64,000 nt of DNA from Lachnospiraceae bacterium 3-1 (GTDB taxonomy: Bacteria; Bacillota; Clostridia; Lachnospirales; Lachnospiraceae): assembly GCA_000403255.2 (NCBI GenBank), contig KE159596.1, positions 124,001-188,000 on the forward strand, in the 5' to 3' direction. The translations under genes and the position numbers were made by a program. Shown here in pieces: positions 4,041 to 54,768 of this stretch. Each line of letters starts with the position of its first letter. The stretch's first letter is position 1. A model generated the notes under the pieces. The model saw nothing but the letters and a program-made list of their open reading frames with translations. It did no database searches and had not been told where the DNA came from.

Positions 4041-4082
4041 ACCGTTGCTATGGCTCCCCTTCATCGAAAAATATCTTTGAGA

Positions 4083-4137
4083 AAGAAAAGTCGCCCCATG
4101 GCAACCTCTGCCAGAAGCGACTTATTTTCTTTCTCAT
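4083..4137. terminator. Bidirectional terminator between convergent HD gene and galE
   Basis: AAGTCGC (4088-4094) pairs with GCGACTT (4117-4123). A-rich flank precedes and T-rich flank follows, so a U-tract exists on both strands. It lies between converging stops at 4040 and 4149. Confidence 0.65.
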
Positions 4138-4148
4138 TATTCAATGCA

Positions 4149-5165
4149 TTAACTGCGGTATCCGTCTGGATTATTGCTCTGCCATCTCCAGGAATCCTCA
4201 CACATCCTGTCAATACCGAATTCAGCTTCCCATCCAAGTTCATTTTTGGCTTTGGAAGCATCTGAATAACATGTGGCAATATCCCCAGCTCTTCTCGGTT
4301 TGATTTCATATGGAATCGGTTTTCCACAAGCCTTTTCATAAGCTTTTACCACATCCAGCACACTGTAGCCATTTCCTGTCCCCAGATTATAAATGCTGAC
4401 GCCAGATTTATCTTCAATCTTCTTCAATGCTTTTACATGGCCCTTTGCCAAGTCAACCACATGAATATAATCACGTACACCCGTTCCATCCGGCGTATCA
4501 TAATCATCACCAAATACACCAAGACACTTTAACTTGCCCACTGCAACCTGAGCAATGTAGGGAACCAGGTTATTGGGAATTCCTTTGGGATCTTCTCCGA
4601 TAATTCCGCTCTCATGAGCTCCAATTGGATTAAAGTACCGGAGTAATACCACGTTCCACTCTGGATCTGCCACATGGAAGTCTGTTAAAATTTGTTCTAA
4701 CATTCCCTTGGTCTGTCCATAAGGATTGGTAATCTCCCCTTTGGGACACTCCTCTGTAATTGGGATAATCGCTGGATCTCCATATACCGTAGCAGAAGAA
4801 GAGAAAATAATATTTTTCACTCCATGGTTACGCATCACATCACATAAAACCAATGTTCCAGTAATATTATTATGATAATATTCCAAAGGCTTCTGCACAG
4901 ACTCACCTACTGCCTTTAACCCAGCAAAATGAATCACACTGTCAATTTTTTCTTTTTCAAAAACTTCTTCCAATCCTTTGGCGTCTAAAATATCCACCTG
5001 ATAAAAAGGCACCTTCGCCCCAGTAATCTTTTCTACTCTCTTTACTGCTTCTTCACTGGAATTTACCAGATTATCCACCACAACCACTTCATATCCTGCA
5101 TGGATTAATTCAATACATGTGTGACTTCCAATATACCCTGCTCCGCCTGTTACTAAAATTGCCAT
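4149..5165 (-). CDS. galE: UDP-glucose 4-epimerase
   Basis: 338 residues, the usual GalE length. The Rossmann NAD motif GGAGYIGSH is at residues 7-15, SSSATVYG provides the catalytic Ser/Thr region, and YGQTK carries the Tyr-Lys pair near 150. It interconverts UDP-glucose and UDP-galactose in the cytosol (Leloir pathway). It is last of three minus-strand genes after a nucleotidyltransferase and a NahK-like kinase, which suggests use of galactose or hexosamine-containing glycans. Its own promoter may lie at 5225-5253. Confidence 0.96.
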
Positions 5166-5224
5166 AATGTTTACCTCCTATCCATCATCCGCTTTACACT
5201 TGCTTTTAGGACTCCTCATGGCAA

Positions 5225-5253
5225 AGTATACCACATCCTAATTATTTAGTAAA
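5225..5253 (-). promoter_or_regulatory. Candidate galE promoter (extended -10)
   Basis: Minus-strand TATACT (5225-5230) is preceded by TGG and lies 17 bp from a weak TTTACT (5248-5253), about 60 bp before the galE start. Confidence 0.4.
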
Positions 5254-5371
5254 TACTATTTTTATTTTACCTTATTTTTAGTAAATCATTAGTTGCTATC
5301 TATTTTCAAGTCTTACACTTCATGCCAGACTTAAATGGAATCAGATGGAATCACCAAAACCTGATTTTCCT

Positions 5372-6490
5372 CTACCTATTATGCCCATTCTGTCCGTTGA
5401 CACTTCGAACAATCTCTTCCAGTTCTTCCCATTTTTCTTCCATATCTGCTACCAGCTTCATCTGAGTGCGGCAACGGTCCAGGTTATGGTTCTCTCGGTG
5501 AATTTTAAAATACACATCTCCCTTTAAGTAATCCGTCAGAAAACGCATTCCATTTTCATAGGTCATTACCTTTGCTCCCATGGGAAGCATAGCGATTTCT
5601 GTATCTGTCAGATTTCCATCGCAGCCTTCCAAAAAACCTTCCGTGTAAATGCGAAACAGCCTTAAATCACAGCTTACTTTCGATAAATCCTGTTCATCTT
5701 CTGCTGCTGTACTAGCGCCAAACCGGATAGAGTCTCCGAAATCATTGACTGCCAGCCCCGGCATTACGGTATCCAAATCAATCACACATATTGCTTTTCC
5801 CGTTTTTTTATCTACCATAATGTTATTTAATTTTGTATCATTGTGGGTCACTCGTAATGGCATTTTTCCTTCTGCCAGCATATCCCCCAACACACAAGCC
5901 GTCTCCTTGCGCGCCCGGAAAAACTCAATTTCCTCCTCTACATTTTTGGCCCTGCCACATACATCCTCCTCTACTGCTTGTAGAAAAACCTCGTATCTGG
6001 CTTTCGTATCATGGAAGCCTGGAATCGTCTCGTGGAGGGTTTTTGCTGGATAATCCGCCAACAGCTGCTGAAATTTACCAAATGCCAGAGCGCTTTCATA
6101 AAAATCCTCATCCTTTTCTACTTGGTCATAGCATATTGCATCTTCAATCACATAATACATACGCCAATACTCTCCATCTTCATCCAGATAGAAGGGTTTC
6201 TGTTCTCGGTCAGGAAGAACCGTTAAAGTTTCCCTCATTTCATCTCCCCCAGCGCTTGCAATTTTCTTTTTCAAAAATGAGGTAACCCCCAAAATATTTT
6301 CCATCACCTCTTCTGGTTTTAAAAAAATACTCTGGTTCATCCGCTGTAAAATAAAATTTTTCTCTCCTTCTACTAAAAATGTATCATTAATATGTCCGTT
6401 GCCGTAGGGTTGTATGCTTTTTATAACGCCTACCTGTTCAAATTGCTGCGCTACTTGTCTAGCCCTCTCCAACTTTTGCTTTTCTTCCAT
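5372..6490 (-). CDS. NahK-like sugar kinase (aminoglycoside-phosphotransferase fold)
   Basis: 372 residues with an APH-type kinase fold. An N-terminal lobe carries an INDTFLV segment. The Brenner motif is VTHNDTKLNNIMVD (about 215-228, catalytic Asp in HND) and the metal Asp lies in CVIDLDTVMPG. The family includes N-acetylhexosamine 1-kinase (NahK/LnpB), which phosphorylates GlcNAc or GalNAc at C1. With the neighbouring nucleotidyltransferase and galE this fits hexosamine salvage from mucin or milk-type glycans. The substrate is inferred from family and context only; homoserine kinase-type activity is less likely. Confidence 0.8.
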   Translation of the reverse strand: MEEKQKLERARQVAQQFEQVGVIKSIQPYGNGHINDTFLVEGEKNFILQRMNQSIFLKPEEVMENILGVTSFLKKKIASAGGDEMRETLTVLPDREQKPFYLDEDGEYWRMYYVIEDAICYDQVEKDEDFYESALAFGKFQQLLADYPAKTLHETIPGFHDTKARYEVFLQAVEEDVCGRAKNVEEEIEFFRARKETACVLGDMLAEGKMPLRVTHNDTKLNNIMVDKKTGKAICVIDLDTVMPGLAVNDFGDSIRFGASTAAEDEQDLSKVSCDLRLFRIYTEGFLEGCDGNLTDTEIAMLPMGAKVMTYENGMRFLTDYLKGDVYFKIHRENHNLDRCRTQMKLVADMEEKWEELEEIVRSVNGQNGHNR

Positions 6491-11038: not shown

Positions 11039-12304
11039 CTACATTGCTTTATCGCGCCTCTTTAGTGTTACCATAAAAGATAAAAAAAGTCCAATTACTG
11101 CAAAAGCCAAAGCAATCAGAAATGAATCCCTGTAATCCCCTGTCTGCTGAAGCGCTTTACTTACAATCATCGGCCCTAACAGCCCAGCCATATTAAATCC
11201 AATGAACATAATTCCGTAATTTACACTGGAATTCTTCGTTCCAAACTGCTGGGCTGTGAAACTTGGATACACGCCCATAAATGCTCCAAAACACACGCCC
11301 ACCAAACAAATTCCTATATAAAACAGCCCTGCAGATCCATCTCCACTAAGATAAAGAATCCCCATTGCAGCAATTGCAATCACAAATACTGCCCGGAGTG
11401 TCTGGATACAGCCAATACGATCCGATATCATCCCTGCCAGAATCCGTCCAAATGTATTAAACAAAGCCAATACTGAAACTACAATTGCAGCTGCCGCCGG
11501 AGTCATGCCAATCATATCCTGGGCAATATTAGATGCCTGTGAAATAGCCATCATGCCAAGCACAGCTCCAAAAAACAACATAACAATCATAGTATAAAAG
11601 TTCGGCGTCTTAAGCATCTCTTTCCAGTCCATATTTACCGCTTGGGGATTTTGCCCTTGTATATCTTTTTTCACAGGCGGCTTCCAGCCATCCGGCACAA
11701 ATCCATCCGGACATTTCACAATCATCTGAGAACACACGCCCACCACAAGGATTATCGCAACGCCCATTGCGATAAATGCTTTACTTACACCAAATCCATC
11801 AATCAAGGCATTTGCCACTGGCGGCACAATCACAGAAGAAATACCATAGGAAGCAGTTGCAATTCCCCCTACCAGTCCCGCTCTATCAGGGAAAAATTTC
11901 ACAGAATTGCTGATGGTGCAGCCATAGGCAAGTCCCATCGCAAGCCCGCTGAACAACCCATACCCCACCACAAGCATTGCAATGTTTGATGCAAACCCAC
12001 AAATCACGTAACCACACCCAAATAAAACCCCTCCCGTAAAAATCACCCATTTTGGCCCTATCTTCTGATTTAAAAATCCGCCGCCAATCATTGTAATAAA
12101 TCCCAAACCATTTCCTACTGAAAAAACCACAGACAAATCTGCGGCAGTCAATTCCATTCCTAGAATTTGGGAAAGATGCGCCGCCATCGGCGCTGCAAAT
12201 ACGCTCCATGCATAGAGGGCGCCTATGCATAAGTTAATCAAACAACTGGCTAATAGTACCAACCAGCGCCTTTTTGTCAAATCCATACTGTCCTTCTTTT
12301 TCAT
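11039..12304 (-). CDS. OFA-family major facilitator transporter (oxalate/formate antiporter-like)
   Basis: 421 residues with 12 predicted membrane helices. The N-terminal LINLCIGALYAWSVF segment is characteristic of the oxalate:formate antiporter family, which exchanges small carboxylates. Last gene of the acyl-metabolism operon, 37 bp after the MBL hydrolase, so it probably imports the operon's acid substrate or exports its product. The second Met (12286) has a nearer AAGGA site and is an alternative start. Confidence 0.85.
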   Translation of the reverse strand: MKKKDSMDLTKRRWLVLLASCLINLCIGALYAWSVFAAPMAAHLSQILGMELTAADLSVVFSVGNGLGFITMIGGGFLNQKIGPKWVIFTGGVLFGCGYVICGFASNIAMLVVGYGLFSGLAMGLAYGCTISNSVKFFPDRAGLVGGIATASYGISSVIVPPVANALIDGFGVSKAFIAMGVAIILVVGVCSQMIVKCPDGFVPDGWKPPVKKDIQGQNPQAVNMDWKEMLKTPNFYTMIVMLFFGAVLGMMAISQASNIAQDMIGMTPAAAAIVVSVLALFNTFGRILAGMISDRIGCIQTLRAVFVIAIAAMGILYLSGDGSAGLFYIGICLVGVCFGAFMGVYPSFTAQQFGTKNSSVNYGIMFIGFNMAGLLGPMIVSKALQQTGDYRDSFLIALAFAVIGLFLSFMVTLKRRDKAM

Positions 12305-41981: not shown

Positions 41982-42006
41982 AAAGCTGCTGACGGGAATC
42001 GAACCC
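41982..42006. repeat. Distal attachment-site copy (tRNA-Thr 3'-end duplication)
   Basis: 25 bp starting AAAGCTGCTGACGGG and ending CGAACCC match 54694-54718 exactly, covering the T-arm and acceptor 3' half of tRNA-Thr. Only this fragment, not a whole tRNA, is present. Confidence 0.9.
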
Positions 42007-42084
42007 ACTAGCAAATCTTAGTTTTCCTCTAAAAACCAGCTTTTTTCTACTTTTCATTTGATTACCTTTGATTACCAAAGTAAT

Positions 42085-42456
42085 TATGCTTTCTTAAATT
42101 CTGGTATAGAACTTATGATATGGCTTTTTTGTTCAATACCTCTTCGATTTCTATGATAATAATTTTCTGTGCAACTAATAATTCGTAGTCATCCTTTTTC
42201 CGCTTTTATCTGTAAATATGTATTCTCCAAACGGATTTAAGGATTTAATCTTTGAACATAACCATGCATAGTCCTCTGGAATTATTACAGTTCTTACACC
42301 TGCTTCGCTCTTAGGAAATTCTTTTACACTATACACATACTTTCCATCTTCTCCTAAAAACCGAGTTTCTGTCCTTCTAATCTTGAAGGTGTTCCCGTCA
42401 AAAACATCATGTTTTAATGCTACAAGCTCTCCTACCCGAATTCCTGTCGCAAACAT
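42085..42456 (-). pseudogene. Tyrosine recombinase (integrase) remnant
   Basis: The frame starting at IS junction 42456 reads ATGIRVGELVALKH, the block with the first catalytic Arg, continuing to KSGKRMTTNY, then a stop. Further downstream in frame YHRNRRGIEQKSHII and IPEFKKA resemble an integrase C-terminus. The segment with the HxxR and Tyr residues is missing, and the 5' part is cut off by an IS fragment. It is the island's former integrase, next to the attachment site. Confidence 0.8.
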
Positions 42457-42459
42457 TAA

Positions 42460-42882
42460 CCTAAATTATTCACCGATATGCGGTGAAAGTGGCTCAAAGT
42501 CCCATAGTTATTGTATTTAAGCTGTTTATTGCATTTCATCTATTAAATGAATAAAAAAGAGCATCCAGTTGTGGTAAAATTAAGGTGTTCAACGTCTTAA
42601 TAATCACACAAAAGGAGCCCTTTATGGATATTTTAAACACCTTATCACTTAAAAGCAATAGACAGATTAAAATAAATTTTAACGGTGGCGATCTATCCTC
42701 CGATGCAGGACTTCTTCTTATAAAAGAATTCGCTGCAAAAATCGGCTTTGCAAAGCTGATCAAAAAGATATTTAAGACCGATGATAAATCGATCCGCTTC
42801 CACAAGGATAACGAAAACCTTATGCAGATGCTCTATCAGATTATCTCCGCATATTTTGAAGATGACTGCGCGGATGAGCTAA
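42460..42882 (+). mobile_element. Truncated IS1380-family copy
   Basis: About 423 bp nearly identical (reverse orientation) to the right end of the element at 45148-46671. It begins with terminal CCTAAATTATTCACC and includes the transposase start (MDILNTLSLKSNRQIKINF) to the ADEL residues, where similarity stops abruptly at about 42882. It interrupts the integrase at 42457-42459. The short frame running past 42882 into unrelated DNA is not a functional gene. Confidence 0.88.
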
Positions 42883-42961
42883 TTTTTATCTTTACCACTC
42901 AATACACACTTTTTACAAAAGCATCTGGATATTCCTTCTCCAAATGCTTTTCAACTCTTCA

Positions 42962-43180
42962 TCATATTTTACTGTTAAAATATTCTTGTGTAACTTGTAA
43001 CTGCTTCTTTAATATTTCCCTCCACATATGAGGACGAATTTCTCCTGAACCTTTTGAAACTTTCGTCAATTTGATATTTCCATCATCATCTATTTTCCGA
43101 TAGAAGTAATGATCCGTATCTTTATACAGTTCCCATCCATCTCTATCGCAAAATCTCTTTAGTTCTTTCCATCTTGGCAT
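42962..43180 (-). CDS. HicA-like mRNA interferase toxin
   Basis: 72 residues. The dsRNA-binding-type fold is suggested by WELYKDTDHYFYRKID, with the His at the usual HicA catalytic place, then SGEIRPHMWREILKKQL. Overlaps the upstream antitoxin by 22 bp, typical of toxin-antitoxin coupling. It would cleave mRNA when free of antitoxin. Confidence 0.72.
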   Translation of the reverse strand: MPRWKELKRFCDRDGWELYKDTDHYFYRKIDDDGNIKLTKVSKGSGEIRPHMWREILKKQLQVTQEYFNSKI

Positions 43181-43584
43181 TGTAACATATCTCCTATCCT
43201 TTCTGGGTTATCTATAATCAATGCTTTAAAAATATAAGGGATATGTTTCTTTCTATTGGGACTATGGGAATACATTTCATATTCATTATAATAATCCAAA
43301 GCATATTCTAATATAGCCCTGCCCATGTTCAAACGTGCTTCCTGCTCATCTTTACCATTCTCTACAAGATCAATTTCATTAAGTGATAAAGTAACAGAAT
43401 TATCGCCTTCAATATATCTCGTGGCAGTAAAATAATATGCTTCTAAAATCTCAGATATTGTTTCCAAATTTGAAAACCACATTTTATCTCGTGTGCGTTT
43501 GATAAACTTAGGTTTCTCATGAATAACGCTATCGCAAACCGCGCTCCATTCTTTTCTTACAGTTGTAGCCTGTTCCATCAACAT
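43159..43584 (-). CDS. Antitoxin of the HicA-like module (Phd/HicB-like)
   Basis: 141 residues from ATG 43584 with AAGGAG 9 bp upstream; earlier Met codons lie in the promoter. N-terminal VRKEWSAVCDSVIHEKPKFI and RTRDKMWFSNLE resemble Phd-type DNA-binding antitoxins; SVTLSLNEIDLVENGKDEQEA resembles HicB. It likely neutralises the HicA-like toxin and represses the operator at 43610-43650. Confidence 0.75.
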   Translation of the reverse strand: MLMEQATTVRKEWSAVCDSVIHEKPKFIKRTRDKMWFSNLETISEILEAYYFTATRYIEGDNSVTLSLNEIDLVENGKDEQEARLNMGRAILEYALDYYNEYEMYSHSPNRKKHIPYIFKALIIDNPERIGDMLQCQDGKN

Positions 43585-43609
43585 ATCTATCATCTCCTTC
43601 GATACCTCC

Positions 43610-43650
43610 ATCATAGCAAAAAGTGTACACAATGTCAACAGTGTACACTT
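43610..43650 (-). promoter_or_regulatory. Consensus promoter embedded in a palindromic operator
   Basis: Minus-strand TTGACA (43633-43638) and TATGAT (43610-43615), 17-bp spacing. The perfect inverted repeat AAGTGTACAC / GTGTACACTT (43621-43630 and 43641-43650) brackets the -35. This is the expected design for toxin-antitoxin autorepression. Confidence 0.82.
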
Positions 43651-43698
43651 CTAGCATATGATGTTCATCCAATTTTTATGCTATAAATAAAAGTCTGT

Positions 43699-43969
43699 CT
43701 ATTTCATCTTATAATCTTTATACCACATTTTATACAATTCCTTATCCGAATGCTTTCTATTTCCATTATACTTAGACCACCCCTTCTTATAGGAGTTAAA
43801 GGAATTTAAAAATTTATAATCACAAATATCATAAGAGCAAAATAATTTTTTATATGCCCTTCCAGACGGAATGTCCAAATAATTTCTACGCAAATGTCTA
43901 TTTGCACGCTTTTTTCATTCCACGGTTATAATCCTTGCAACATGGAACTTTCTTATAACTTCTACTCAT
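43699..43969 (-). pseudogene. Frameshifted small basic protein gene (MSRSYKK type)
   Basis: ATG 43969 opens MSRSYKKVPCCKDYNRG but reaches a stop at about 43898. Dropping one A of the A6 run (43910-43915) joins it to KRANRHLRRNYLDIPSG and the frame ending at 43699 (about 89 residues). The combined protein is Lys/Arg/Tyr-rich and resembles small uncharacterised Firmicutes mobile-element proteins. Function unknown. Confidence 0.6.
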
Positions 43970-44054
43970 AACATTTTCCTCTTAAAAGCAACATTTCATT
44001 TCGACTCAACATCATCTACTAAATAACAGATAATTTTCATGTCCTCTTTTTATT

Positions 44055-44216
44055 CTACTGATTAATCAATTCGTCAATTATAGCCTCACAAGCAGCAACA
44101 CACTCATCTTGAGTAGAATATCTCATATTTTCCCATAAAGAGTTAAAACGACAATCTTCATCTTTTTTATTAAATATATAATACCAATATGGTACTTCAT
44201 TTCTCGATCTTAACAT
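44055..44216 (-). CDS. 53-residue hypothetical protein
   Basis: The frame from ATG 44216 reads MLRSRNEVPYWYYIFNKKDE and ends QDECVAACEAIIDELINQ. No clear ribosome site precedes it. Two Cys and an aromatic-rich head are notable. It could be the tail of an older gene. Confidence 0.35.
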   Translation of the reverse strand: MLRSRNEVPYWYYIFNKKDEDCRFNSLWENMRYSTQDECVAACEAIIDELINQ

Positions 44217-44264
44217 TTGGATTTTTCAACTAAACAAGTTAGACTTGTTCCAAATTATTAAGTT

Positions 44265-44456
44265 TTACATACTCGCTACAGTTTTCCGCTTTAATGCCCT
44301 TCTCCGTTCAATCTCTCTTTCTGCTTCTTTGCCGGAATTATTGTAATATGCAACTTTTTCCGCTACTGTCATATCTTTTGTCTGTTCATAATTCTGTTCC
44401 CTGATCTTGTGAATATCCTCAATCGTAAAATCAGGACTAATAACCAATGCTTCCAT
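44265..44456 (-). CDS. Small antitoxin-like protein paired with PIN nuclease
   Basis: 63 residues from ATG 44456 (GAGGG upstream). The acidic/basic helical sequence DFTIEDIHKIREQNYEQTKD and a C-terminal Arg/Lys cluster resemble small partners encoded downstream of PIN proteins. It starts 2 bp after the PIN stop. Confidence 0.6.
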   Translation of the reverse strand: MEALVISPDFTIEDIHKIREQNYEQTKDMTVAEKVAYYNNSGKEAEREIERRRALKRKTVASM

Positions 44457-44458
44457 AA

Positions 44459-44935
44459 TCATCCCTCACTTTCCAATAATACAGATGGATTGATAATATC
44501 TATTCCCTTGTAACCTTCTAGATTAGCAATCGCTCTCACGCCCCTAATCGTCTTGATATTTACAATATGCTTAAAATTCCATGATATGATACAGTCACAA
44601 GCATTGACAACAGCGGCGGCAATGTGCTGACAGTCATCAAAGCTCTTCGGTCTTAATATCCCCATATCAATAATCTTCTGTGCAAGTTCCACGATTTCCT
44701 CATTAATTTCTAATTTGGTATACTCAATATCACTCAAATAGTCATACAGTTTGTTCCTTTTGCTTTCAGAACATTTCTCTATTTCATCCAATGTTACCTG
44801 AGAAAGATATACATCATATTTTCCATTGACAAAATCTTTCCATAATTCCAATGTGTCCTTCATGCGTTCTGGTGCATCTTCCTGTGAAAGATAACTGATG
44901 TATCTAAGTATACCTTTAATTTCCGCATAGAGCAT
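44459..44935 (-). CDS. PIN-domain ribonuclease, VapC-like toxin
   Basis: 158 residues from ATG 44935, which overlaps the preceding stop as ATGA. PIN-type acidic residues appear in VTLDEIEKC, SFDDCQHIAAAV and CDCIISWNFKHIVN (the last is the typical D-xx-xS-W-N-F block). It is probably a toxin cleaving RNA, with the downstream 63-residue protein as antitoxin. Confidence 0.78.
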   Translation of the reverse strand: MLYAEIKGILRYISYLSQEDAPERMKDTLELWKDFVNGKYDVYLSQVTLDEIEKCSESKRNKLYDYLSDIEYTKLEINEEIVELAQKIIDMGILRPKSFDDCQHIAAAVVNACDCIISWNFKHIVNIKTIRGVRAIANLEGYKGIDIINPSVLLESEG

Positions 44936-45141
44936 CACTCCTTAAATCTGGTTTCATATGCCAACTCTGGTTTTAGATCAACTTTCCATTCAATCAAATC
45001 CTCCAGCTGGCATTGTAACAACTGGCATATATCCTCAATAGTCTTTGTTGATACATCACACATAAAATCTTTTCCGTTATGAGTGTCTTTGTATTCCTGT
45101 AATTTTTGCTCAATCTCTTCCATTGTTGCACCGCTACACAT
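44935..45141 (-). pseudogene. 5'-truncated Cro/CI-type HTH regulator
   Basis: Residues VSTKTIEDICQLLQCQLEDL match the C-terminal end of HTH_26 (Cro/CI) regulators. The DNA-binding N-terminal part is missing because the IS1380 element begins at 45148. Formerly first gene of the PIN operon and probably its regulator. Confidence 0.68.
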
Positions 45142-45147
45142 TTTAAG

Positions 45148-46671
45148 CCTGAATTATTCATGAACATATAGAAATGCTTGATACTACAAAACCTTGAACC
45201 AGTTCCCTTGAAATCAATCGAGTTATCCACAAAAATGGGCAGACTTCCCCCTTGGAATCCGATTGAGTTTTTTGAAATGTCAAAGTACGTTAATGGTTGC
45301 TATTCCAACTGTATGGTCAGTCGCCGGATGTTCTCCAGTGTTCCGTAGAATTCCTTTTTATAGGGACAGCTGCCGCACAGCTTGAATGTGACATATCTTG
45401 CTGAACGGACTGCTCTCGCAGCAATTTTTATCAGCTTTAATCGAATGGTATTAACCTGTTGCTTTCGCATATTTGCCGGAAGTACCAGTCGCCTGAACCA
45501 ATTGAATAAGTTGTACGCAAGCATGTGAATCCGCATTCGGTTGGCATTTACTACTTTGGAATGACTGCTGACAGCGGCAAAGTCAAATGTATAAGCTGAC
45601 CGTATGGTTTCTCAATTTTGAAAACCACACGTCTCGGATATTCCCATGTGCCAGCCTGATACAGGAATTCACCATAAGTTGCTCTATAGCTGATCTGGTC
45701 CTCTTTGGATGCTTTGTACAAATCTTCCTCTTCATCCGAAGCAAGGGCAATAAGTGAGGAATTCCGTTTTAAGCGGATGGCATAGGAACAGCCATTCATC
45801 TCACAGGCTTTATAAAGTTTTGGAGATGAGAATCCGCTGTCGCCGCGAAGATAAGTTTTTATTCCTCTTTCCATGTATTCCAGAAAGAGGGATTCCATAA
45901 ATTTATCCGCATCATTGCTGCAGTGGAGTGTTCCGTCACACAGCTGTGCTTTGGGCAGATCTCTGGTCAGTCCGTCATAGCGCAGTAACGGATGATAGCC
46001 ATGTGCCTGATAATGGAAGTTGAAGCCTTCTCCTTCCTGCTTGCCGTAAGCGCCAAACAGGGTGCTGTCCAAGTCAAGAAGCATATGTTCCGGCCGCTTT
46101 ATGGAATAGATGATATCCCTGAGGCTTTTATCAATGTCATCGAACTGTATGAGGGTATCCTCGTTCATACGGTTGAAAAATCTTGATAATGTAGGCTGCG
46201 ATGCCAGACTTTTCTTTTCAAGAATGGCATGAAAAACAGGATCCGAAGTTAGCTCATCCGCGCAGTCATCTTCAAAATATGCGGAGATAATCTGATAAAG
46301 CATCTGCATAAGGTTTTCGTTATCCTTGTGGAAGCGGATCGATTTATCATCGGTCTTAAATATCTTTTTGATCAGCTTTGCAAAGCCGATTTTTGCAGCG
46401 AATTCTTTTATAAGAAGAAGTCCTGCATCGGAGGATAGATCGCCACCGTTAAAATTTATTTTAATCTGTGTATTGCTTTTAAGTGATAAGGTGTTTAAAA
46501 TATCCATAAAGGGCTCCTTTTGTGTGATTATTAAGACGTTGAACACCTTAATTTTACCACAACTGGATGCTCTTTTTTATTCATTTAATAGATGAAATGC
46601 AATAAACAGCTTAAGTACAATAACTATGGGACTTTGAGCCACTTTCACCGCGTATCGGTGAATAATTTAGG
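45148..46671 (-). mobile_element. IS1380-family insertion sequence, internally deleted
   Basis: Terminal inverted repeats CCTGAATTATTCA (45148) and CCTAAATTATTCA (complement ending 46671) are flanked by the 5-bp duplication TTAAG (45143-45147 and 46672-46676). The length 1524 bp is about 120-150 bp less than a full IS1380, matching a deletion in the transposase. Confidence 0.9.
45300..46507 (-). pseudogene. IS1380 transposase with deletion/frameshift
   Basis: From ATG 46507 (AGGAG upstream) the product shows the IS1380 N-terminus, the first Asp in LLDLDSTLFG and second Asp in YLRGDSGFSSPKL. At KPYGQLIHLT the frame breaks; the remaining frame resumes at FDFAAVSSHSKVVNANR and ends at 45300. 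The about 40-residue stretch that should hold the catalytic Glu is missing, so the enzyme is inactive. Confidence 0.87.
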
Positions 46672-46828
46672 TTAAGCATGGAAGACATACGGAACTACTA
46701 CGGAAGTACAGAGGTAGATACAGACGGCACAAGGATATTGAAATAGGCGTAACCGCAAGTAAAAAATAGGGTGTAACCAATGGAAACGGCTGCACCCTGA
46801 CAATAAAAGAAAAGGACGGTATAAGGAT

Positions 46829-47056
46829 ATGAGAATCAACGGCGCAAGACAATTCAGGGGAAATGATGGGAACAGCTATTTCGTACAGGATGCACACAAA
46901 GCAGACATGCATAAAGGAAAATATATTTTGACTGTCAAAGTAAATGGTGTGTATAAATTATGTTACGACATGTTTTATAAGCTGTTGTATTTTAATACCA
47001 TTAAGGATGCACAAAGGGAAGTGTTATACAGTGCTGATTTTATTAGAACCATGTGA
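46829..47056 (+). CDS. 75-residue hypothetical protein
   Basis: ATG 46829 follows AAAGGACGG and AAGGAT. Sequence MRINGARQFRGNDGNSYFVQ, basic, no family recognised. It is the first plus-strand gene after the IS; a 22-codon remnant (MEDIRNYYGSTEVD) precedes it. Confidence 0.45.
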   Translation: MRINGARQFRGNDGNSYFVQDAHKADMHKGKYILTVKVNGVYKLCYDMFYKLLYFNTIKDAQREVLYSADFIRTM

Positions 47057-47631
47057 GAATAATGCAGGAAAGATGAATGAAGGATGCAGGAATGCGGATT
47101 GAAATTATTCAGCTTCTATGGGCTTCATCTGGAATATATCTGGATGCAGTAAGAAACATACCTGGAATATGGCAATAGATTGGGACTATGGGCTTCATGC
47201 TTTCATAGTCTTTTCTTTCTGGTTTTCGCTTCTTTCTTTTGGTGTATTTAATAACTCTGTGTGCGTTTCTAAGGGACAAATTCGGGCTTTAATGGTTTGG
47301 GTGTAATGTGTTAGGGTACGGATGGAAAATGGATATTTGGGCTGATAATTGCGTTGTGTGATGTGGTTTATGCAGCAGTTTGGAGGGAAGTGGGTGCAGT
47401 GGTACTAGGGTGGGTTTACATTTTATTTTTCTGACTTTAGTGTAGGAAAGGGGTTATCTAATCAACATTCATGTTACCTTAAAAATTTGACTCCGAATCG
47501 AATATGCCAGGGGAGGGGGTATGTTTTGAACAAAAAAATAGTTAAGTACTTAATATATAGAGGTATACCTCCAAAACCCGCAAAAAAATAAGGCACACCA
47601 GACTTTCACATCCGATATGTCTTACAACAAA
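47057..47631. other. Gene-free stretch with two adjacent 12-bp palindromes
   Basis: 575 bp without a convincing gene. It contains perfect palindromes TTAAGTACTTAA (47542-47553) and GAGGTATACCTC (47560-47571), six bases apart, possibly regulator or recombinase sites. Confidence 0.5.
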
Positions 47632-47910
47632 TCAACAATAATGGCTGATTTCCCCAAAATATTCATACCACTTCTGCATAATCTCATTGCTATTCGCCTC
47701 AATAAAGGCTATCAGCTTCCTCAGATCCTTTGCAGGTATTTGGGAATTGTTATTGCAAATGAGAGTCTTCCCTCTTTTCGTTATCCATATTTTTGTTGAG
47801 TTCGCCCTTGGGTTATGTTCCGCAATATGCGCATGAACCGGCTCTGTCGGCTTATTCTCATTTGCCCAAAAGAATATGATATATCCACCGAACCTAAAAA
47901 TTTGAGGCAT
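47632..47910 (-). CDS. DUF4160 protein
   Basis: 92 residues from ATG 47910, overlapping the upstream gene by 17 bp. GGYIIFFWANENKPTEPVHAHI is the DUF4160 signature, with the metal-binding-like HAH. DUF4160 proteins are encoded with small partners in toxin-antitoxin-like pairs; which one is toxic is unsettled. Confidence 0.82.
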   Translation of the reverse strand: MPQIFRFGGYIIFFWANENKPTEPVHAHIAEHNPRANSTKIWITKRGKTLICNNNSQIPAKDLRKLIAFIEANSNEIMQKWYEYFGEISHYC

Positions 47911-48163
47911 TTGCAAATCCACCTTCTTTTGCAAACTCTATGATTAAGTGGGCATTATTTTCTACAAATTCTTTATAATAAGCCATTTCTTCATCAGAGA
48001 AGCCAACTACTTCTTCCCATGTGTAATCCGGCAAATAACACGTTGCATTATGAAAGCCATCATATACCGCTTTTTCAAAATAAACTTTTACCCTTCCATC
48101 TGCCCTCATTTCTGAATGGACTACTTCTGTCGTATCGCTCAGTGTTGCATAAGAATATACCAT
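47894..48163 (-). CDS. Partner protein of DUF4160 (TA-like)
   Basis: 89 residues from ATG 48163 with GGAGG 9 bp upstream. Starts MVYSYATLSDTTEVVHSEM and contains KVYFEKAVYDGFHNATCYLP. It overlaps the DUF4160 gene, the usual arrangement of paired antitoxin-like proteins. Exact family uncertain. Confidence 0.68.
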   Translation of the reverse strand: MVYSYATLSDTTEVVHSEMRADGRVKVYFEKAVYDGFHNATCYLPDYTWEEVVGFSDEEMAYYKEFVENNAHLIIEFAKEGGFANASNF

Positions 48164-48294
48164 AATTGCCAGCCTCCCAAAACCTATCAGGTTTTTCCAC
48201 AAATTTAATTATCATTACTATACCACAGCTTGAATCTTTTATCTACATTTTTCTAAAAAAATAGGCTTACCAGACTTCCACATCCAATATGCCT

Positions 48295-48875
48295 TCATTC
48301 ACTTTCAAATATATCTTTCCTCATACTTATTGTATGTTTTGCATTTTTCCGTTTATTGCTCAAATTTTCAATGAATCCATTCTTCTCATAGAATCTAGGT
48401 GTATTTGGCTCATACTCAATATCTGCATCTACAGTGATAAACCTACACGCTATTCCCATTTCATTCATGCCAAAAGCAAATGCCCTTGCCATATCCAGCA
48501 TAAATGAACCATATCCCTTCCTTTTTGCCTTATCCGATACTTCCTTATTCACTGCCAGCTTTCCAACTTTTAATGCAGGTATTGAAGCATATGGCACTTT
48601 ACTTATATCATGTAACTCTTTTTCTTCATTTGTCAATTTAATCGAATCTGCCGAAAAAGTCATATATGCCAACAATTCATTGTTTTCCTATGAAAAAGCA
48701 AGAATGTTTTACTTACATTTAAATCATAAAATTTATTGGCAATTTTCAAAAAACCATTATATTCAGCAATATGACTGTCAAATAAATAATGTGAGACATC
48801 ATCTACTTCATTGATTGATAATAGTCTCACATCATTTTGAATCTCCACAATGTCACTTTCTGTCAAATAACTCAT
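48295..48875 (-). pseudogene. GNAT acetyltransferase toxin-like gene, frameshifted
   Basis: The N-terminal frame (from 48875, MSYLTESDIVEIQNDVRL) ends near 48660. The C-terminal frame (ENNELLAYMTFSADSIKL, then KGYGSFMLDMARAFAFG, the acetyl-CoA loop region) runs to 48295. One extra A in the A4 run near 48690 would fuse them. GNAT toxins acetylate aminoacyl-tRNA. ATGA overlap with an upstream antitoxin-like gene. Confidence 0.75.
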
Positions 48876-49024
48876 GGTTTCCGTATATCAGCAAGGACAT
48901 TATGCAACATATAGTTTTTCTTCATGGCCTTTTCTGTCGGTTTAGTATTTGTCTGAAGCAATAGTTTGGCAGCATCCTTACCGCTTAGTTCAGGTGTTGC
49001 CTGGATAGGTTTTATTGTTGACAT
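48872..49024 (-). CDS. Antitoxin-like small protein upstream of GNAT gene
   Basis: 50 residues from ATG 49024 (AGGTGG upstream): MSTIKPIQATPELSGKDAAK. Overlaps the GNAT gene by 4 bp. It is the presumed antitoxin; no ribbon-helix-helix is obvious. Confidence 0.65.
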   Translation of the reverse strand: MSTIKPIQATPELSGKDAAKLLLQTNTKPTEKAMKKNYMLHNVLADIRKP

Positions 49025-49248
49025 AATATCCACCTCTTTCCCTTTCTTTTCCTTATTCATATTATATCACCTCAGTTACCAAAATTCAATAACTGTGTAT
49101 GTGATATTCTCCTATTACTGAGAAGTTTATCACATACTCAATCAAAAACCAATCATTTTTACATATTATGTGCAATGATGGCATAACAATTCCTGATTTT
49201 CATCATACAAGGTAAAATACATCTGCTATGCCTTGCCATCAATAACCA

Positions 49249-50265
49249 TCAATCCCAATCTTCCACATACGGCTTCACTTCAAACCTCACCAGCGCATCA
49301 TACACCTTTTTTGGAACCTTATTCTTATACTTATCAGCCATAATCAGTATGTCAGCCTGTTTATGCCTTTTATATTCTTCAAATGCTTCCTCTGGTGTTT
49401 CCCAATAAGATAATCTCACAACTTCGTCATGCCCATATGGTTTTATCTCACCATAATACATTTTCATTTTACTGTCATACCTCACGCCAAGGGGCAAATC
49501 CATTTTAGAATTCCTCCATTTGCCTGTCTTATGCTTCTTACAGTTGGATAACATGGTATTCAATGTCTGGGGAATGATACAACATTTATCAGGAGCATAC
49601 TCTTTATATCCAGGAAACAGCAGGTCTTTATCTACTGCCATGGATTCACCGTCACACTCATAATATTCAGAAGCCCACCACTCCGCAAATGAATCCTTGT
49701 CATTTAGCCATAAATCACACATAGTTGAACCATTCTTATCCTTATAGCACCTAATATAGATGCCATTCCAGATTGAATATGCAGCAGTTGATTTCAATGT
49801 TATATATGGAAGATATTCCTGTCGTCTGCCCAGTTCATCCACATAAACTATCCCACGCTCCAAATCAGTATATTCTTCATTGTTTACAAAGATTAAATTC
49901 CTGTAATAACAATTATTTTTATCTCTGTCAATGTGCCATATCCTGTTATATTCATTTGGGTTTTCAAGGAAATGCTCTGCTACTAACTTGTCTGTATATG
50001 TTTCTATCCTTTTCTCTTTATCTATTCCACTGAGGGTAAAATGTGCATACCCTGTTTTATGCATACGGAAATTGCTGCGGAGATTGTTTACAAGCCGCCC
50101 ATGGTTGCTGATCCAGTAATTATTTGTGCCATTCACCAATACAAATATTTCATCATTTGCAATAAGCTCTATGTCTGATTCCTTTATATCCAATACCCTT
50201 TTATCTGCAATGGATAAATATTCTTTAAATTCTTTTCTCTGTTCTAATTTCTTTTTGCTACTCAT
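49249..50265 (-). CDS. HNH/NUMOD4-type DNA-binding or endonuclease protein
   Basis: 338 residues. NUMOD4-like NYWISNHGRLVNN (about 48-60) is followed by an HNH_3-like core WHIDRDKNNCYYRNLIFV (about 110-127). The C-terminal part has LPLGVRYDSKMKMYYGEI, similar to AP2-type domains of homing proteins. It likely nicks DNA as a phage-type homing endonuclease or binds structured DNA. It borders the hairpin array on the promoter side; the two may be functionally linked, but this is inference. Confidence 0.72.
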   Translation of the reverse strand: MSSKKKLEQRKEFKEYLSIADKRVLDIKESDIELIANDEIFVLVNGTNNYWISNHGRLVNNLRSNFRMHKTGYAHFTLSGIDKEKRIETYTDKLVAEHFLENPNEYNRIWHIDRDKNNCYYRNLIFVNNEEYTDLERGIVYVDELGRRQEYLPYITLKSTAAYSIWNGIYIRCYKDKNGSTMCDLWLNDKDSFAEWWASEYYECDGESMAVDKDLLFPGYKEYAPDKCCIIPQTLNTMLSNCKKHKTGKWRNSKMDLPLGVRYDSKMKMYYGEIKPYGHDEVVRLSYWETPEEAFEEYKRHKQADILIMADKYKNKVPKKVYDALVRFEVKPYVEDWD

Positions 50266-50306
50266 TTTACTTATAAATTCCTTTCAATTTCGATATGATA
50301 ATAGAT

Positions 50307-51367
50307 ACGTTCACCAAAACGGGAGAACGTAAAAAGAGAGCCAGAATAGGCTCCCTGATATAAGAAAATATTCAGTTGTATGTTTTCGCCATTAGTGCGA
50401 TTATTCAAATCTGTGTAATCGTGATAATAACGTTTCCAAAATGGGAAACACTGATTTTTCCCAACTTGTAGGGAAAAGGTAGAATTTCAGATATGCAGAG
50501 TATACATATCCGAATTAGACCATCCTGGACTAATGTATCCATAAATCCACATTAATTTGCAGTTGTACCACCATGGGGCAACCTTTTACACAATTCTGCG
50601 AAAAACTCATCCCTTTATAGGGGTTGGGTTTGTAACCGATGCTATTGGTTTAAGTTTTTCACTTTGAACGGAAATAGGTTTTTCCCATACATAATCAGGT
50701 TTTTACTTTGATTTTCTAAGGTAGCGATTTACTACTTTAGGCTCTGCAATTATCAAAAGTTTTGCTTTCTAAAGCTGCATTTAACGACTTTTGGATTTAC
50801 TTTGCTTTCAAGGATGTAAATACTCTTTACTCCCTTTACTATTTTGTATTCAAGGTAACTAATGTTTACCTTACTCCTTCCAATCGGACTAATCGGCAAA
50901 TAACCACATATTTCAAAGGATACAATTATAATGAGCTTTTCTACAAATGGAGAAACCCTCTGCCCTGAAACAGGGTAGCCATTATAATAGAATGTCCGCT
51001 ATGGACACAATACAGATCCTTTTATAGGTATGTCGTGAAATACGACACCCCTAATCACATAAGTGTAGAATCGCACTTATTTTGAATATGGGATAGCATT
51101 TTGATGCCCAATATCCTATCTCCAAAAGGTATCGGTGAAACGCCTACCCCCCCCCCTTTATATTTACACATTATGGTTTTTACTCCGACATTTTTGTCGA
51201 AGCTGTACTTTTTAGTATATGTTGGTTATAAACTTTACAGTGTCCTTTGAAAGCCAGTGTATTATATACAACCTGCGTCCATTTGAACGCAAGATGATTT
51301 TTACAGCAACATCAAATTTGAAGCGCCTTTTATATTTTCGAGGGGTACAAAAATTTTCGTATCCCCT
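50307..51367. repeat. Gene-free array of >15 different short hairpins
   Basis: The 1135-bp gap 50266-51400 has no credible gene but many perfect or near-perfect stems, each 5-9 bp with 3-14-nt loops. Examples: 50307-50330, 50338-50353, 50398-50421, 50432-50449, 50456-50477, 50634-50650 (AACCGAT-gct-ATTGGTT), 50716-50740 (9 bp), 50852-50872, 50925-50988 (9-bp outer stem with CCCTG/CAGGG inside), 50993-51007, 51031-51047, 51059-51080, 51186-51199, 51274-51291, 51341-51367. Stem sequences all differ; spacing is roughly 25-50 bp. Could be a structured RNA, a single-strand DNA origin or recombination array. Confidence 0.72.
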
Positions 51368-51400
51368 TTAATGGACATGCTAGAATGGCGCGACCACATA

Positions 51401-51778
51401 TCACGCTTGGTGTTCCAGAATCCATTTCAACATATCTTCACATCCATTCTCGCCATCTGCTACGCCGAGTATCAGATCATACAACTCTTTTTGTGTATAT
51501 TCCAATTCATACCCATTGACTGCAAGAAAAACCAGCATAACATGAACACCAATTCTTTTATTCCCATCTATCATTGCATGATTCTTTACCAATCCATAGC
51601 ATAATCTTGCCGCTTTTGCCTGGATACTTGGATATAATTCATCACCACCGAATGACTGAAACGGACTTTCAAGTGCTGAATCCAACAATCCATTATCCCG
51701 AATTCCATCACAGCCTCCTATAGATTCTATCAACTGAGCATGGAGCATTAACACCTGTTCCTTTGTCAGACGGATCAT
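51401..51778 (-). CDS. doc: Doc toxin (Fic/DOC family)
   Basis: 125 residues. The Fic-type motif HAMIDGNKR (about 66-74) matches HxFx(D/E)GN(K/R) except that the aromatic Phe is Met. Doc phosphorylates EF-Tu to stop translation. It overlaps the Phd antitoxin gene by 4 bp. Confidence 0.9.
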   Translation of the reverse strand: MIRLTKEQVLMLHAQLIESIGGCDGIRDNGLLDSALESPFQSFGGDELYPSIQAKAARLCYGLVKNHAMIDGNKRIGVHVMLVFLAVNGYELEYTQKELYDLILGVADGENGCEDMLKWILEHQA

Positions 51779-52017
51779 TTTGCCAATACCTCATAAGCCT
51801 CTCTATTCTGTTCAATCAGTCTTTTAGATATATTCATGATATCTTCATCTGATGCAACTGAATCATTCTCAGCCTTGCTAAAATCTATTACAAGATACCT
51901 CGGCACATTATTTTTTAGGATAACAGCAGTACCATGTTCATCAACCAGCCTTGCTACTTTGGAAAAATTCTGGTTTGCTTCTGTAATGGAAACCATTGTA
52001 TTTGTATCAATCTTCAT
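51775..52017 (-). CDS. Phd/YefM-family antitoxin
   Basis: 80 residues: MVSITEANQNFSKVARLVDE is the Phd N-terminal DNA-binding fold; the C-terminal tail (IEQNREAYEVLAK) would block Doc. Encoded first, as usual for autoregulated pairs. Confidence 0.88.
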   Translation of the reverse strand: MKIDTNTMVSITEANQNFSKVARLVDEHGTAVILKNNVPRYLVIDFSKAENDSVASDEDIMNISKRLIEQNREAYEVLAK

Positions 52018-52137
52018 GATCGAACATCTCCTTAATCACAATATTTTGTTTATATTATATGCAACTTATAGGATATATTCAACCTATTTTTTGATTACAG
52101 GAAAGATGTTTTGATTCTGAACATCTTTTTTTCTTAA

Positions 52138-52968
52138 TTAAAACAGATCCTCTATATCAATAAGGTCTAAATCTTTTCCAGTAATGCAAAATAACTCATG
52201 ATTACATTCACCATGAGATTCATTATCTACTTCTATATAATCAGGTTCCTTATAATCACCTGTTTTATAAACCTCAATATCCCGTTTTGGAGTTTCCAAA
52301 TTTTTCGGAGACACCACTTTGCATGGGTCATTCTGTCCCACACAATCTATACTTGTCAGGGTAGGTTCTGATAAAACCTGTCTACACAAATCAACCTCCG
52401 CATCAAAGTTGTTCCTATACTTTTTCGCATCATTACAGTAAGCATTGTATCTTAGCTTGATTGCCCTTCTGTCAAGCTTCTCAACAAAATCTTCACATTC
52501 CACGGTATCAGAATATTTTTGCGCTTCAGCAATCACAGCATCTTTGTCACAATATCTGCCATATGAATTATTCAGCTTATAGTATGTACCATTTGATCTC
52601 CGCTTTTTATGTCTATACACATATATAAGCTGCATTTTCTCTAATTGCTCCAGGTAACCATTAATAGTCTCTTTCCCATATCCCCACAATGATATCATTT
52701 CATCTTGTGACATATGCCATTCCTTAGTCTGGTTATTGATTGTACCAATCAGGGAACAGAAGAATGAAAATATATTAAACGGCTTATTTGCGTTTTCAAA
52801 GATGCTCTGCATCTCCCATTGTTCCAAAACAACAAACTTTTTCTTATCGGAATTTACCTCTAATCCTTTACCAGAAAAAATGTAATTATCATTATCCTGA
52901 TTTAGAACCTCTATAATTCCTTTTTCTATAAGCGAATGTACGCCACTTTTAATTCCATCAATTACAGA
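52138..52968 (-). pseudogene. Replication-initiator-like winged-helix protein, 5' end lost
   Basis: The open frame runs from just after a TAA (52969-52971) to 52138 without an ATG. Only a TTG at 52827 could start a shorter 229-residue form. The sequence IDGIKSGVHSLIEKGIIEVL, SQDEMISLWGYGKETINGYLEQLEKMQLIYVY resembles winged-helix domains of plasmid or phage replication initiators. The upstream in-frame stop suggests the gene is broken. Confidence 0.6.
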
Positions 52969-52998
52969 TTATTTTGATTGTCCTGTAATAGCAATTAT

Positions 52999-53163
52999 TT
53001 ATTTTCTTAATGGACACCATTCAGGGCTTCTCTTCGGCAACTCATTTACACTTAATTTCCCCATATCGTCAATTCTGTCTACATGGTCACAATAATAAAT
53101 CTTTTTCCCATAATTATACTTCTTCATAAATTCACATTCGGCGCAATTTTGCGTTCTATTCAT
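52999..53163 (-). CDS. 54-residue Cys-rich protein ending CPLRK
   Basis: From ATG 53163: MNRTQNCAECEFMKKYNYGK with CxxC, a further Cys (YYCDH) and C-terminal WCPLRK. Four Cys suggest a zinc ribbon. Shares the Cys-Pro-Leu-Arg-Lys ending motif with the next gene. Confidence 0.6.
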   Translation of the reverse strand: MNRTQNCAECEFMKKYNYGKKIYYCDHVDRIDDMGKLSVNELPKRSPEWCPLRK

Positions 53164-53182
53164 ATATCGTTGTCCTCCTGTA

Positions 53183-53512
53183 TTACCATATCATATCTAT
53201 ATATTCTGGTTCTGGCACTTTCACTTCAATAAACTTTCCATCTTTATCTGTCAATGATATATTCGTATTCATTTGTATAATATCTTCTGCCTTATGTTCC
53301 GTTTCTCTTCTATTCTGCCATGCTGTGAAAATCTTCATGACACGCTTTCTGATTCTTGATTTTCTTAATGGACAATCAGTTTTCATATCAATCTTCCCTG
53401 TACGCTTCCTATTCAGCGAACAATAATCATCCATATCTAAATGCCTGCTTACATCTTTCCTGTATATGCAATGGTTACAATTCTTCTTTCTCTTGCCCAC
53501 ATAAATTTTCAT
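53183..53512 (-). CDS. Cys-rich island protein with CPLRK motif
   Basis: 109 residues from ATG 53512. The head KKNCNHCIYRKDVSRHL, then YCSLNRKRTG and DCPLRKSR give four Cys as in the neighbouring 54-residue protein, followed by an extra C-terminal extension. Likely a zinc-binding small protein; function unknown. Confidence 0.65.
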   Translation of the reverse strand: MKIYVGKRKKNCNHCIYRKDVSRHLDMDDYCSLNRKRTGKIDMKTDCPLRKSRIRKRVMKIFTAWQNRRETEHKAEDIIQMNTNISLTDKDGKFIEVKVPEPEYIDMIW

Positions 53513-53559
53513 GAAATGCACTCCTGTCATTCATTCTCTGAATCTATTCCGTTTTTGGT

Positions 53560-53847
53560 TTATTCATCCTCTATTTTTTCTGTCAATGTCTCGCTTGGGT
53601 AAAACTTTACTTTTTTATGCTCTGGTACAATACATGTTTCTCCTGTCTTCGGGTTCCTTGCTTCCTTTTCTTTCACGGTTTTCAGTTCAAAGTGCCCTAT
53701 GCCGTAGAAATTGACTTTCCTGCCCTCCGATAGATAATCCATAAGCATATCCCAGAATAATTCAACCATTTTTACTGCATCCTTTTTATAAAAGCCGCCT
53801 TGCTCTGCTATCTTGTAGGCAAACTCCTTTTTATTCACTGTTTCCAT
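53560..53847 (-). CDS. HU-family DNA-binding protein
   Basis: 95 residues. NKKEFAYKIAEQGGFYKKDA, a GRKVNFYGIGHFELK turn and RNPKTGETCIVPEHKKVKFYPS match HU/IHF, including the beta-arm RNPxTG. It probably bends DNA for island maintenance or recombination. Confidence 0.92.
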   Translation of the reverse strand: METVNKKEFAYKIAEQGGFYKKDAVKMVELFWDMLMDYLSEGRKVNFYGIGHFELKTVKEKEARNPKTGETCIVPEHKKVKFYPSETLTEKIEDE

Positions 53848-53862
53848 ATTATTTTTCTCCCC

Positions 53863-54246
53863 CTATGCCCTTACTGATATTCCCTGGTTTCTTAAATACT
53901 GAATTGCCAATTGTAATAAGCTGCCATTGTTGATCGTTTCGTCCATCGTGTCATCCCACACACGGGGTTTATGGTTGACAGACAGTCCCCCATGCAATTC
54001 ACTGTTCGCCCACCTTGCCACCTGATACCCGGTTGCATTTACATAATCATCCATGGAATCATAATCAATGTATACACATGCCCTTACGCCGCCTTTATCT
54101 GGATATGCGTCTACTTTTACTGCTGACCGCAGGAATGCTTCAGTCCTTCGGTAGCTGTCCGGTGTCCACCCGGTATAGTAATCATTCAGGTAATAATTTA
54201 ACGTCTCATATACCCTTTCCGCTAATTGGTCTACCATATTTTTCAT
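53863..54246 (-). CDS. Hypothetical island protein (127 residues)
   Basis: Starts MKNMVDQLAERVYETLNYYL, ends LAIQYLRNQGISVRA; contains WANSELHGGLSVNHKPRVWDD. Vaguely like small phage head-tail or gp10-type proteins, but I cannot assign a family. It is 16 bp upstream of HU. Confidence 0.6.
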   Translation of the reverse strand: MKNMVDQLAERVYETLNYYLNDYYTGWTPDSYRRTEAFLRSAVKVDAYPDKGGVRACVYIDYDSMDDYVNATGYQVARWANSELHGGLSVNHKPRVWDDTMDETINNGSLLQLAIQYLRNQGISVRA

Positions 54247-54693
54247 GACTGGCTGTAATGCTTTCTATAACTGGCTCATGTTCTTTATGTGTTTTGCCAT
54301 TATAAGTTGTCCTCCTTGGGTTTTAGATTTTATGATTTTGTTTTTAGAATTCTGTTTTGCTTTTGGGTTCTGTTTTGATTGTTACAATGAAATTGTGGTT
54401 TCAAGTTACTGTAGAATTGGCTGTTAGAATGCCCCTGTGAAGCTCTATGTGGCTTATAAGGGCATTTTCATGCTGAATGCGGTGAATATTGTTTTGTGGT
54501 TTCAGGCACTAAAATAAGCCCACCATCAATCATATTTCTATAATTGATCATGGACTTATGGTAATGTCCAAATATCCAATTCCACGATGTACAGGATTCT
54601 TCCTTTCTCAGATGCTAATTTGTTCGTACGCTTGTTCTGATTACCTTTTTGATTACCTATCTTCTGAAACCCTTGATTTTATAGGATTTTTCA
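54247..54693. other. Gene-free island end with arm-like repeats
   Basis: 447 bp without a gene. GATTACCTTTTTGATTACC (54638-54656) resembles GATTACCTTTGATTACC (42060-42076) at the other island end, suggesting integrase arm sites. Confidence 0.45.
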
Positions 54694-54718
54694 AAGCTGC
54701 TGACGGGAATCGAACCCG
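54694..54718. repeat. Proximal attachment-site core in tRNA-Thr
   Basis: 25-bp core shared with 41982-42006, covering the tRNA 3' end and three bases beyond. Confidence 0.9.
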
Positions 54719-54768
54719 TGACCTCCGCACTACCAATGCGACGCTCTACCGACTGAGCCACAGCAGCA
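54696..54768 (-). tRNA. tRNA-Thr (anticodon GGU)
   Basis: The minus strand begins GCTGCTGTGGCTCAGTCGG and folds as a cloverleaf: acceptor GCTGCTG/CAGCAGC, D-arm, anticodon stem CGCA/TGCG with loop TTGGTAG (anticodon GGT), and T-arm with GGTTCGAATCC. CCA is not encoded. It follows sigH as in related Clostridia. Confidence 0.95.

Follow-up and report, generated by a model that had tools for sequence, protein, structure and literature searches.

The tract located at positions 50266-51390 of the window (the whole 64,000-nt stretch of Lachnospiraceae bacterium 3-1 DNA analyzed here, derived from contig KE159596.1) probably encodes, on its minus strand and in the sense of an adjacent HNH endonuclease gene, a large structured noncoding RNA of modular build that is carried by mobile islands. 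As judged from the comparison of homologous sequences, (i) local hairpins are kept by compensatory changes, (ii) the 3′ end is constant and (iii) the body is composed of variable hairpin blocks. It would represent a kilobase structured RNA of gut-bacterial islands, usually placed just 5′ of an HNH gene, which has apparently not been described so far.

The initial annotation had reported, for region 50307-51367, an array of hairpins with unlike stem sequences, and had viewed structure rather than sequence as the conserved feature. The density of the array exceeds chance. The tract, bounded by the start of HNH (50265) and, approximately, by the stop codon of Doc (51401), contains 23 non-overlapping perfect stems of at least 5 bp (within 50266-51390) vs 12.2 after shuffling, a value reached by none of 1000 shuffles; for stems of at least 6 bp the respective numbers are 9 and 3.8, and 8 of 1000 shuffles reach 9. 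Region 50307-51367 taken separately contains 27 perfect stems (at least 5 bp, 3-14-nt loops) vs 14.2 (sd 4.1) in shuffled sequence, which was equaled in 2 of 300 cases, and none of these stems is 8 bp or longer. The whole-tract fold z-score of this region is -7.5 for the plus strand and -7.7 for the minus strand (30 shuffles each). Direct repeats within the tract are limited to two-copy families and the stems are indeed unlike one another, which rules out an amplified repeat. The two hairpins originally given as examples (50634-50650 and 50716-50740) proved to be poor ones, since each contains a plus-strand G.T pair; on the minus strand, the one supported by the comparative evidence, this pair becomes an A.C mismatch. 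A run of ten C residues on the plus strand (G in the RNA sense) is present inside the tract at 51147-51156.

The search of related genomes, proposed in the same annotation, revealed homologous tracts of about 0.3-2.1 kb directly 5′ of HNH homing-type endonuclease genes in Lachnospiraceae. A second copy (L023; 1,740 nt by profile) is located on contig 12 of the window's own genome. Family-level DNA searches with the window tract and with the 1.7-kb copy of Petralouisia muris (L044) listed 10 and 9 of 397 genomes, respectively. In each list, 8 genomes were confirmed, either by the profile or through longer matches; genomes G157, G373 and G175 gave short matches only (L032, L034 and L231), unconfirmed by the profile. 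The RNA tract was found in 7 of the 29 genomes of the window's genus, including G715, which is 100% identical to the P. muris copy over 1,751 positions. Seven HNH relatives (A2), used as queries, yielded 71 loci, mostly titled as Lachnospiraceae or its members, such as P. muris, Acetatifactor muris (L037), Parablautia muri (L049) and Sporofaciens musculi (L061 and L062). At higher ranks, with few candidates scored per genome, only the window's own genome was recovered, both in the order-level search with R1, a model covering the final 182 positions of the RNA (1 of 392), and in the class-level DNA search (1 of 291). The tract gave no blastn match in collections of phage, plasmid and E. coli genomes, and a phage or plasmid origin was rejected on this basis. 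Four DNA patterns applied to IMG/VR identified L215, which shares a contig with L106/L108 (L108 is identical to L068), and L216, which was unconfirmed by the full profile.

The copies differ considerably in length, from about 0.3 kb (L037, L042, L045 and L060) to about 2.1 kb (L035 and L036). The window copy, recognized by its stem excess, its homologues and out-of-sample pairing, is shortened: it lacks about 550 profile positions of the body at a junction located at 50759-50764 (profile position 713 corresponds to 50764 and 1270 to 50759). Duplicated stretches occur in L029 and L036. The body gains and loses hairpin blocks between copies, and long bodies of 1.6-2.1 kb retain structure.

Pairing in the relatives was assessed out of sample: 279 pairs were predicted from 9 tracts and checked in 34 others, in which 2661 of 3087 cells pair (86.2%). 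The re-dealt controls gave a mean of 84.2% and a maximum of 84.8% (200 re-deals), and the slid controls 39-46%; the small margin over re-dealing reflects the fact that most pairs vary little. Where both letters had changed in the test tracts, 90 of 150 cells still pair (26-43% when slid), so that stems change letters and pairing stays, in accordance with the initial view. Taken one by one, only 3 of the 39 helices exceeded every shuffle in this test. When the window is folded by itself, its global minimum-energy structure shows no conservation (pairing in 0.34 of cells at changed pairs vs 0.33 for random pairs), and support is therefore limited to local hairpins. In the out-of-sample test, as in the counts of mismatches, terminators and non-overlapping stems, tract boundaries were set by hand. 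None of the 51 four-nt loops closed by perfect stems of at least 6 bp in 43 tracts is of the GNRA or UNCG type, which, together with the size spread of about 0.3-2.1 kb, speaks against one fixed, ornate fold. The commonest four-nt loops in these tracts are composed of A and T (e.g. AAAT and ATTT), and several hairpins are full palindromes.

One copy, L226, comprises the body (profile positions 4-1694) without HNH and without an R1 match. In this copy 89% of 134 pairs are kept and the local fold z-score is -10.5. The near full-length body occupies positions 3559-5487 of the locus, and the sequence downstream of it resembles, by eye, the terminator-like stretch found beyond HNH in L061.

The 3′ part of the tract has the most regular anatomy: in the 5′ to 3′ direction, the body of hairpin blocks is followed by a terminator-like hairpin, a last hairpin, a ribosome-binding site and HNH. 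In the window, the conserved 3′ domain (50271-50456, minus strand), defined by an R1 match of 163.7 bits and by covariation, contains on the same strand (i) the terminator-like hairpin followed by a T run (50335-50356), (ii) the last hairpin (50306-50331; helix 4, 94.8% of cells paired in the fitted alignment), placed between the terminator-like hairpin and the ribosome-binding site, and (iii) the putative HNH ribosome-binding site GAAAGGAA (50278-50285), read from the sequence and conserved in the alignment. Of 43 tracts, 32 have a terminator-like hairpin at this place, within the final 140 nt, and it occurs in two unlike sequence versions. In a plain 21-row alignment of the R1 region, 81.3% of cells are paired vs 75.3% after re-dealing (0 of 500 re-deals reached the observed value); in the alignment fitted to the model the values are 87.1% and 68.1%, and of the 29 pairs 27 vary on both sides. 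RNAalifold predicted only 8 pairs from the plain alignment, whose stems are misaligned. Compensatory changes are present in the 3′ domain as well as out of sample.

R1 matches 44 of the 66 sources searched, in every case on the HNH strand and on the 5′ side of HNH. These sources comprise 58 of the 71 loci of the HNH search and eight others (the window, L023, L025-L029 and L107); L052, L077 and L086 (the same loci as L028, L026 and L029), L062 (98% like L061), L059 (which looks like L058), L090 and L099-L105 were omitted. Forty-three of the matched rows are distinct, because L027 and L066 are one locus. Matches were obtained for 22 of the 26 sources whose HNH protein is at least 54% identical to that of the window (best segment), and for 22 of the 40 others.

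The HNH gene of the window is open and encodes a 338-aa homing-type protein (49249-50265, minus strand; phrog_953, E 9.8e-32; PADLOC homing endonuclease, 1.2e-6). The family profile matches PDB 1u3e, an HNH homing endonuclease that we take to be I-HmuI, with an E value of 0.017. By sequence match the neighboring protein is an HNH homing endonuclease, and cleavage and homing are predicted for it. The gene had been designated HNH/NUMOD-type; the HNH part of this designation stands, also as the rule in relatives, and the NUMOD part does not, the Pfam NUMOD4 match (0.072) being below cut-off. AP2 matches of the HNH proteins of L029 and L060 are also below cut-off, and no RuvC-type domain was present among the profile matches. 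HNH proteins as unlike as about 27% identity follow the same RNA end, and three loci (L050, L053 and L054) encode an HNH protein of 54-72% identity and lack an R1 match.

Whether the array acts as RNA or as DNA was judged from the strand asymmetry of its imperfect stems. Read in the HNH sense, stems with a single internal mismatch in 43 tracts (42,664 nt) contain 57 G.T, 10 A.C and 89 other mismatches, vs shuffled means of 7.4, 6.5 and 35. In the body alone (29 tracts of at least 700 nt, with the last 200 nt removed), the counts are 39, 7 and 78 vs 5.2, 4.6 and 22.7, respectively; the HNH coding control gave 3 G.T, 4 A.C and 11 others. Terminator-like hairpins are likewise asymmetric (40 sense vs 7 antisense in the 43 tracts). 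Both biases favor an RNA of the HNH strand (minus in the window) over folded DNA. A single folded DNA strand is formally conceivable, because G.T is tolerated in DNA too. Among the options initially considered, the multi-hairpin RNA is supported by covariation, one-strand wobble pairs and the conserved sense terminator-like hairpin. The single-strand replication origin and the folded-DNA recombination array, for which stem constraint without strand bias is expected, are unsupported, given the asymmetry of wobble pairs and terminators.

The window copy is carried by an island of about 12.7 kb at tRNA-Thr (41984-54767). Its near end is the tRNA-Thr (GGT) gene (54695-54767, minus strand), identified by repeat comparison and tRNA call, and its far end is a 20-nt exact copy of the tRNA end (41984-42003; the other copy is at 54695). 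The island presumably also contains an integrase-like fragment (42175-42456), whose kind was judged from its letters, and what we take to be two similar transposase-like ORFs (42624-43031, plus strand; 45551-46546, minus strand) and toxin-antitoxin-type genes. The RNA copy has lost part of its sequence and is surrounded by broken genes. Two islands of S. musculi have 3.2 kb in common at 98.3% in different surroundings; the module has therefore recently moved or been duplicated.

Upstream of the tract, all on the minus strand, are located (i) the Doc (Fic) and Phd genes (51401-52017; Pfam Fic, 2.4e-17; Phd/YefM, 6.5e-5, below cut-off), (ii) a gene of a rep-like/DNA-binding protein (52138-52827), with weak matches to replication-type families only, (iii) a gene of an HU-type DNA-binding protein of the island (53560-53847; Pfam Bac_DNA_binding, 1.9e-24; synteny) and (iv) P145 (53863-54246; alignment A6, synteny), the gene of a conserved island protein without family assignment, with a start shortened in the window. 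Doc/Phd separate the rep-like gene from the RNA in the window and in some other copies, and the two are directly adjacent in others. The upstream neighbor varies between copies (P145, HU-like, CSD, rep-like, a 625-aa protein or Doc), and in 58 of the 61 rows listing one it is encoded on the same strand as the RNA. In the window the profile begins about 14 nt past the Doc stop codon, which leaves room for a promoter only inside Doc; promoter-like sites in the window are not above chance (11 vs 9.5), and no promoter could be assigned to the RNA.

The RNA structure seems to extend into the 3′ end of the rep-like gene in relatives: a hairpin in this coding end shows matching changes between copies and is kept, by eye, in the frame-broken L068. 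Rep-like proteins with unlike N-terminal parts, encoded beside the RNA, are alike in their C-terminal tails (about 60 aa; window 52138-52360, L023, L029, L030, L069 and L097). P145 has no match in Pfam, PHROGs, NCBIfam or PADLOC, and the label "gp10-like", considered at first, was dropped for lack of a family match. Its predicted fold (pLDDT 75.7) is weakly like viral proteins (best E 2.1e-3), with tail components lower down, and matches no PDB chain at E of 0.001 or less.

We propose that the RNA would form the last part of the transcript of the island's operon. It would be released at the terminator, and HNH would be made only from read-through transcripts. The body may serve the island as a structural RNA, as a binder of proteins or by assembling with itself, in a role like that of the phage RNAs GOLLD and ROOL, and the HNH enzyme may promote the spread of the locus by homing. 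A role for the body on its own is suggested by its conservation and by one HNH-less copy.

It is possible, albeit clearly less probable, that the array is solely a leader of HNH, an attenuator or 5′ region of excessive size, with a body lacking a role of its own; the terminator-like and last hairpins would then hold the endonuclease low until read-through, perhaps with help from the cold-shock-domain protein whose gene lies upstream in many islands. The constant part does adjoin the HNH start, copies of about 0.3 kb retain essentially this part, and it precedes even highly divergent HNH proteins. Homing endonuclease genes of T4-like phages are also under hairpin control at the ribosome-binding site; in one of them, the hairpin lies just upstream of this site and leaves it uncovered (PMC2988022). 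However, bodies of 1.6-2.1 kb retain structure, the structure of the L226 body, without HNH and R1, is as well kept as elsewhere, and the collection of 71 loci via HNH biases the sample toward an RNA-HNH link.

A two-part mobile machine is a bolder proposal that we consider unlikely: a kilobase string-of-hairpins RNA, unrelated to HEARO/omega RNA and longer than GOLLD and ROOL, would assemble with or scaffold HNH or island proteins (P145, HU or the cold-shock-domain protein) as a ribonucleoprotein for island spread. Joint action of the RNA with the HNH protein specifically, as an RNA-scaffolded or RNA-assisted nuclease, appears quite improbable. The tight linkage (44 of 66 sources) with unlike HNH proteins is in keeping with it, but the RNA occurs without HNH in L226 and HNH without R1 in L050, L053 and L054, and homing-type HNH enzymes carry their own DNA-binding domains.

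It is very improbable that the hairpins act at the DNA level, as single-stranded replication or transfer origins or as a folded-DNA recombination array. The rep-like neighbor gene (weak matches), the location in a mobile island and the fully palindromic hairpins would suit such a role; against it, G.T and not A.C is tolerated in one sense, with an unbiased HNH coding control, and the terminator-like hairpins have one sense. Chance stems in AT-rich, non-functional DNA of a decaying island, as the partly deleted window copy among broken genes might suggest, are hardly credible, being contradicted by the shuffle controls, the compensatory changes and the constant position.

The statement of the initial annotation that no family matches the array holds for Rfam 15: there was no match in the window at gathering thresholds or in the tract surroundings at E up to 5, and no known-family match of the RNA in 12 loci (gathering) or in the L036 tract (E up to 1). 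Membership in GOLLD or ROOL (Rfam covariance models unmatched), in HEARO/omega RNA (no Rfam match, and no RuvC-type match in the partner protein), and in group I or group II introns (no Rfam match) was accordingly rejected. A literature search recovered no description that we recognized; overlap with the structured RNA candidates of human microbiomes in PMC8040213 is possible.

The proposed RNA differs from GOLLD in its location in chromosomal islands and not phages, its linkage to HNH, the lack of an Rfam match and its size (1.6-2.1 kb in long copies vs over 800 nt). Furthermore, hairpin blocks are lost and gained here, unlike in GOLLD, and our claim does not include a conserved multi-branch core. 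HEARO, presumably an Rfam family, and omega RNA, associated with IscB-IsrB, are similar in that an RNA gene lies beside the gene of an HNH-containing nuclease, but here no RuvC-type domain was found in the HNH protein, and HNH and the RNA occur apart. The likeness to free-standing HNH homing endonucleases (I-HmuI and T4-like mob genes) concerns the protein family and the presence of hairpins before the endonuclease gene; T4-like phages have single hairpins at this place, whereas the array described here reaches about 2 kb. According to PMC12286853, ROOL is a large RNA of prophages and phages with unknown function, and its representative env-120 (659 nt) has a complex pseudoknotted fold and forms nanocages. 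The two have in common that they are large RNAs of mobile DNA; the RNA proposed here has no Rfam match. The Vibrio phage ICP1 produces a long noncoding transcript of about 800 nt, similarly an ORF-less kilobase tract in mobile DNA (PMC7567579); its host element is a phage of Vibrio, and the sequence comparison, made by phage blastn only, gave no match.

Conserved structure at such a size is rare among bacterial RNAs other than ribosomal RNA, and there is still no consensus on what GOLLD, ROOL and OLE do (PMC12286853). The tract would add a class of RNA in which entire hairpins come and go, with a link to a homing endonuclease and with members in named strains (e.g. P. muris), and it indicates that current RNA libraries can lack kilobase RNA genes.

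Further observations concern the loci encoding the 625-aa protein. For L060, the identification of this protein as a terminase was rejected, as there was no such match, and an intron reading was considered and found no supporting match. A hairpin of about 25 bp is visible by eye just after the gene of the 625-aa protein in L042, L055, L060 and L081; its G-rich and C-rich arms vary between copies and still pair. In addition, L081 contains a match to the Pistol ribozyme (53 bits) at positions 12139-12207.
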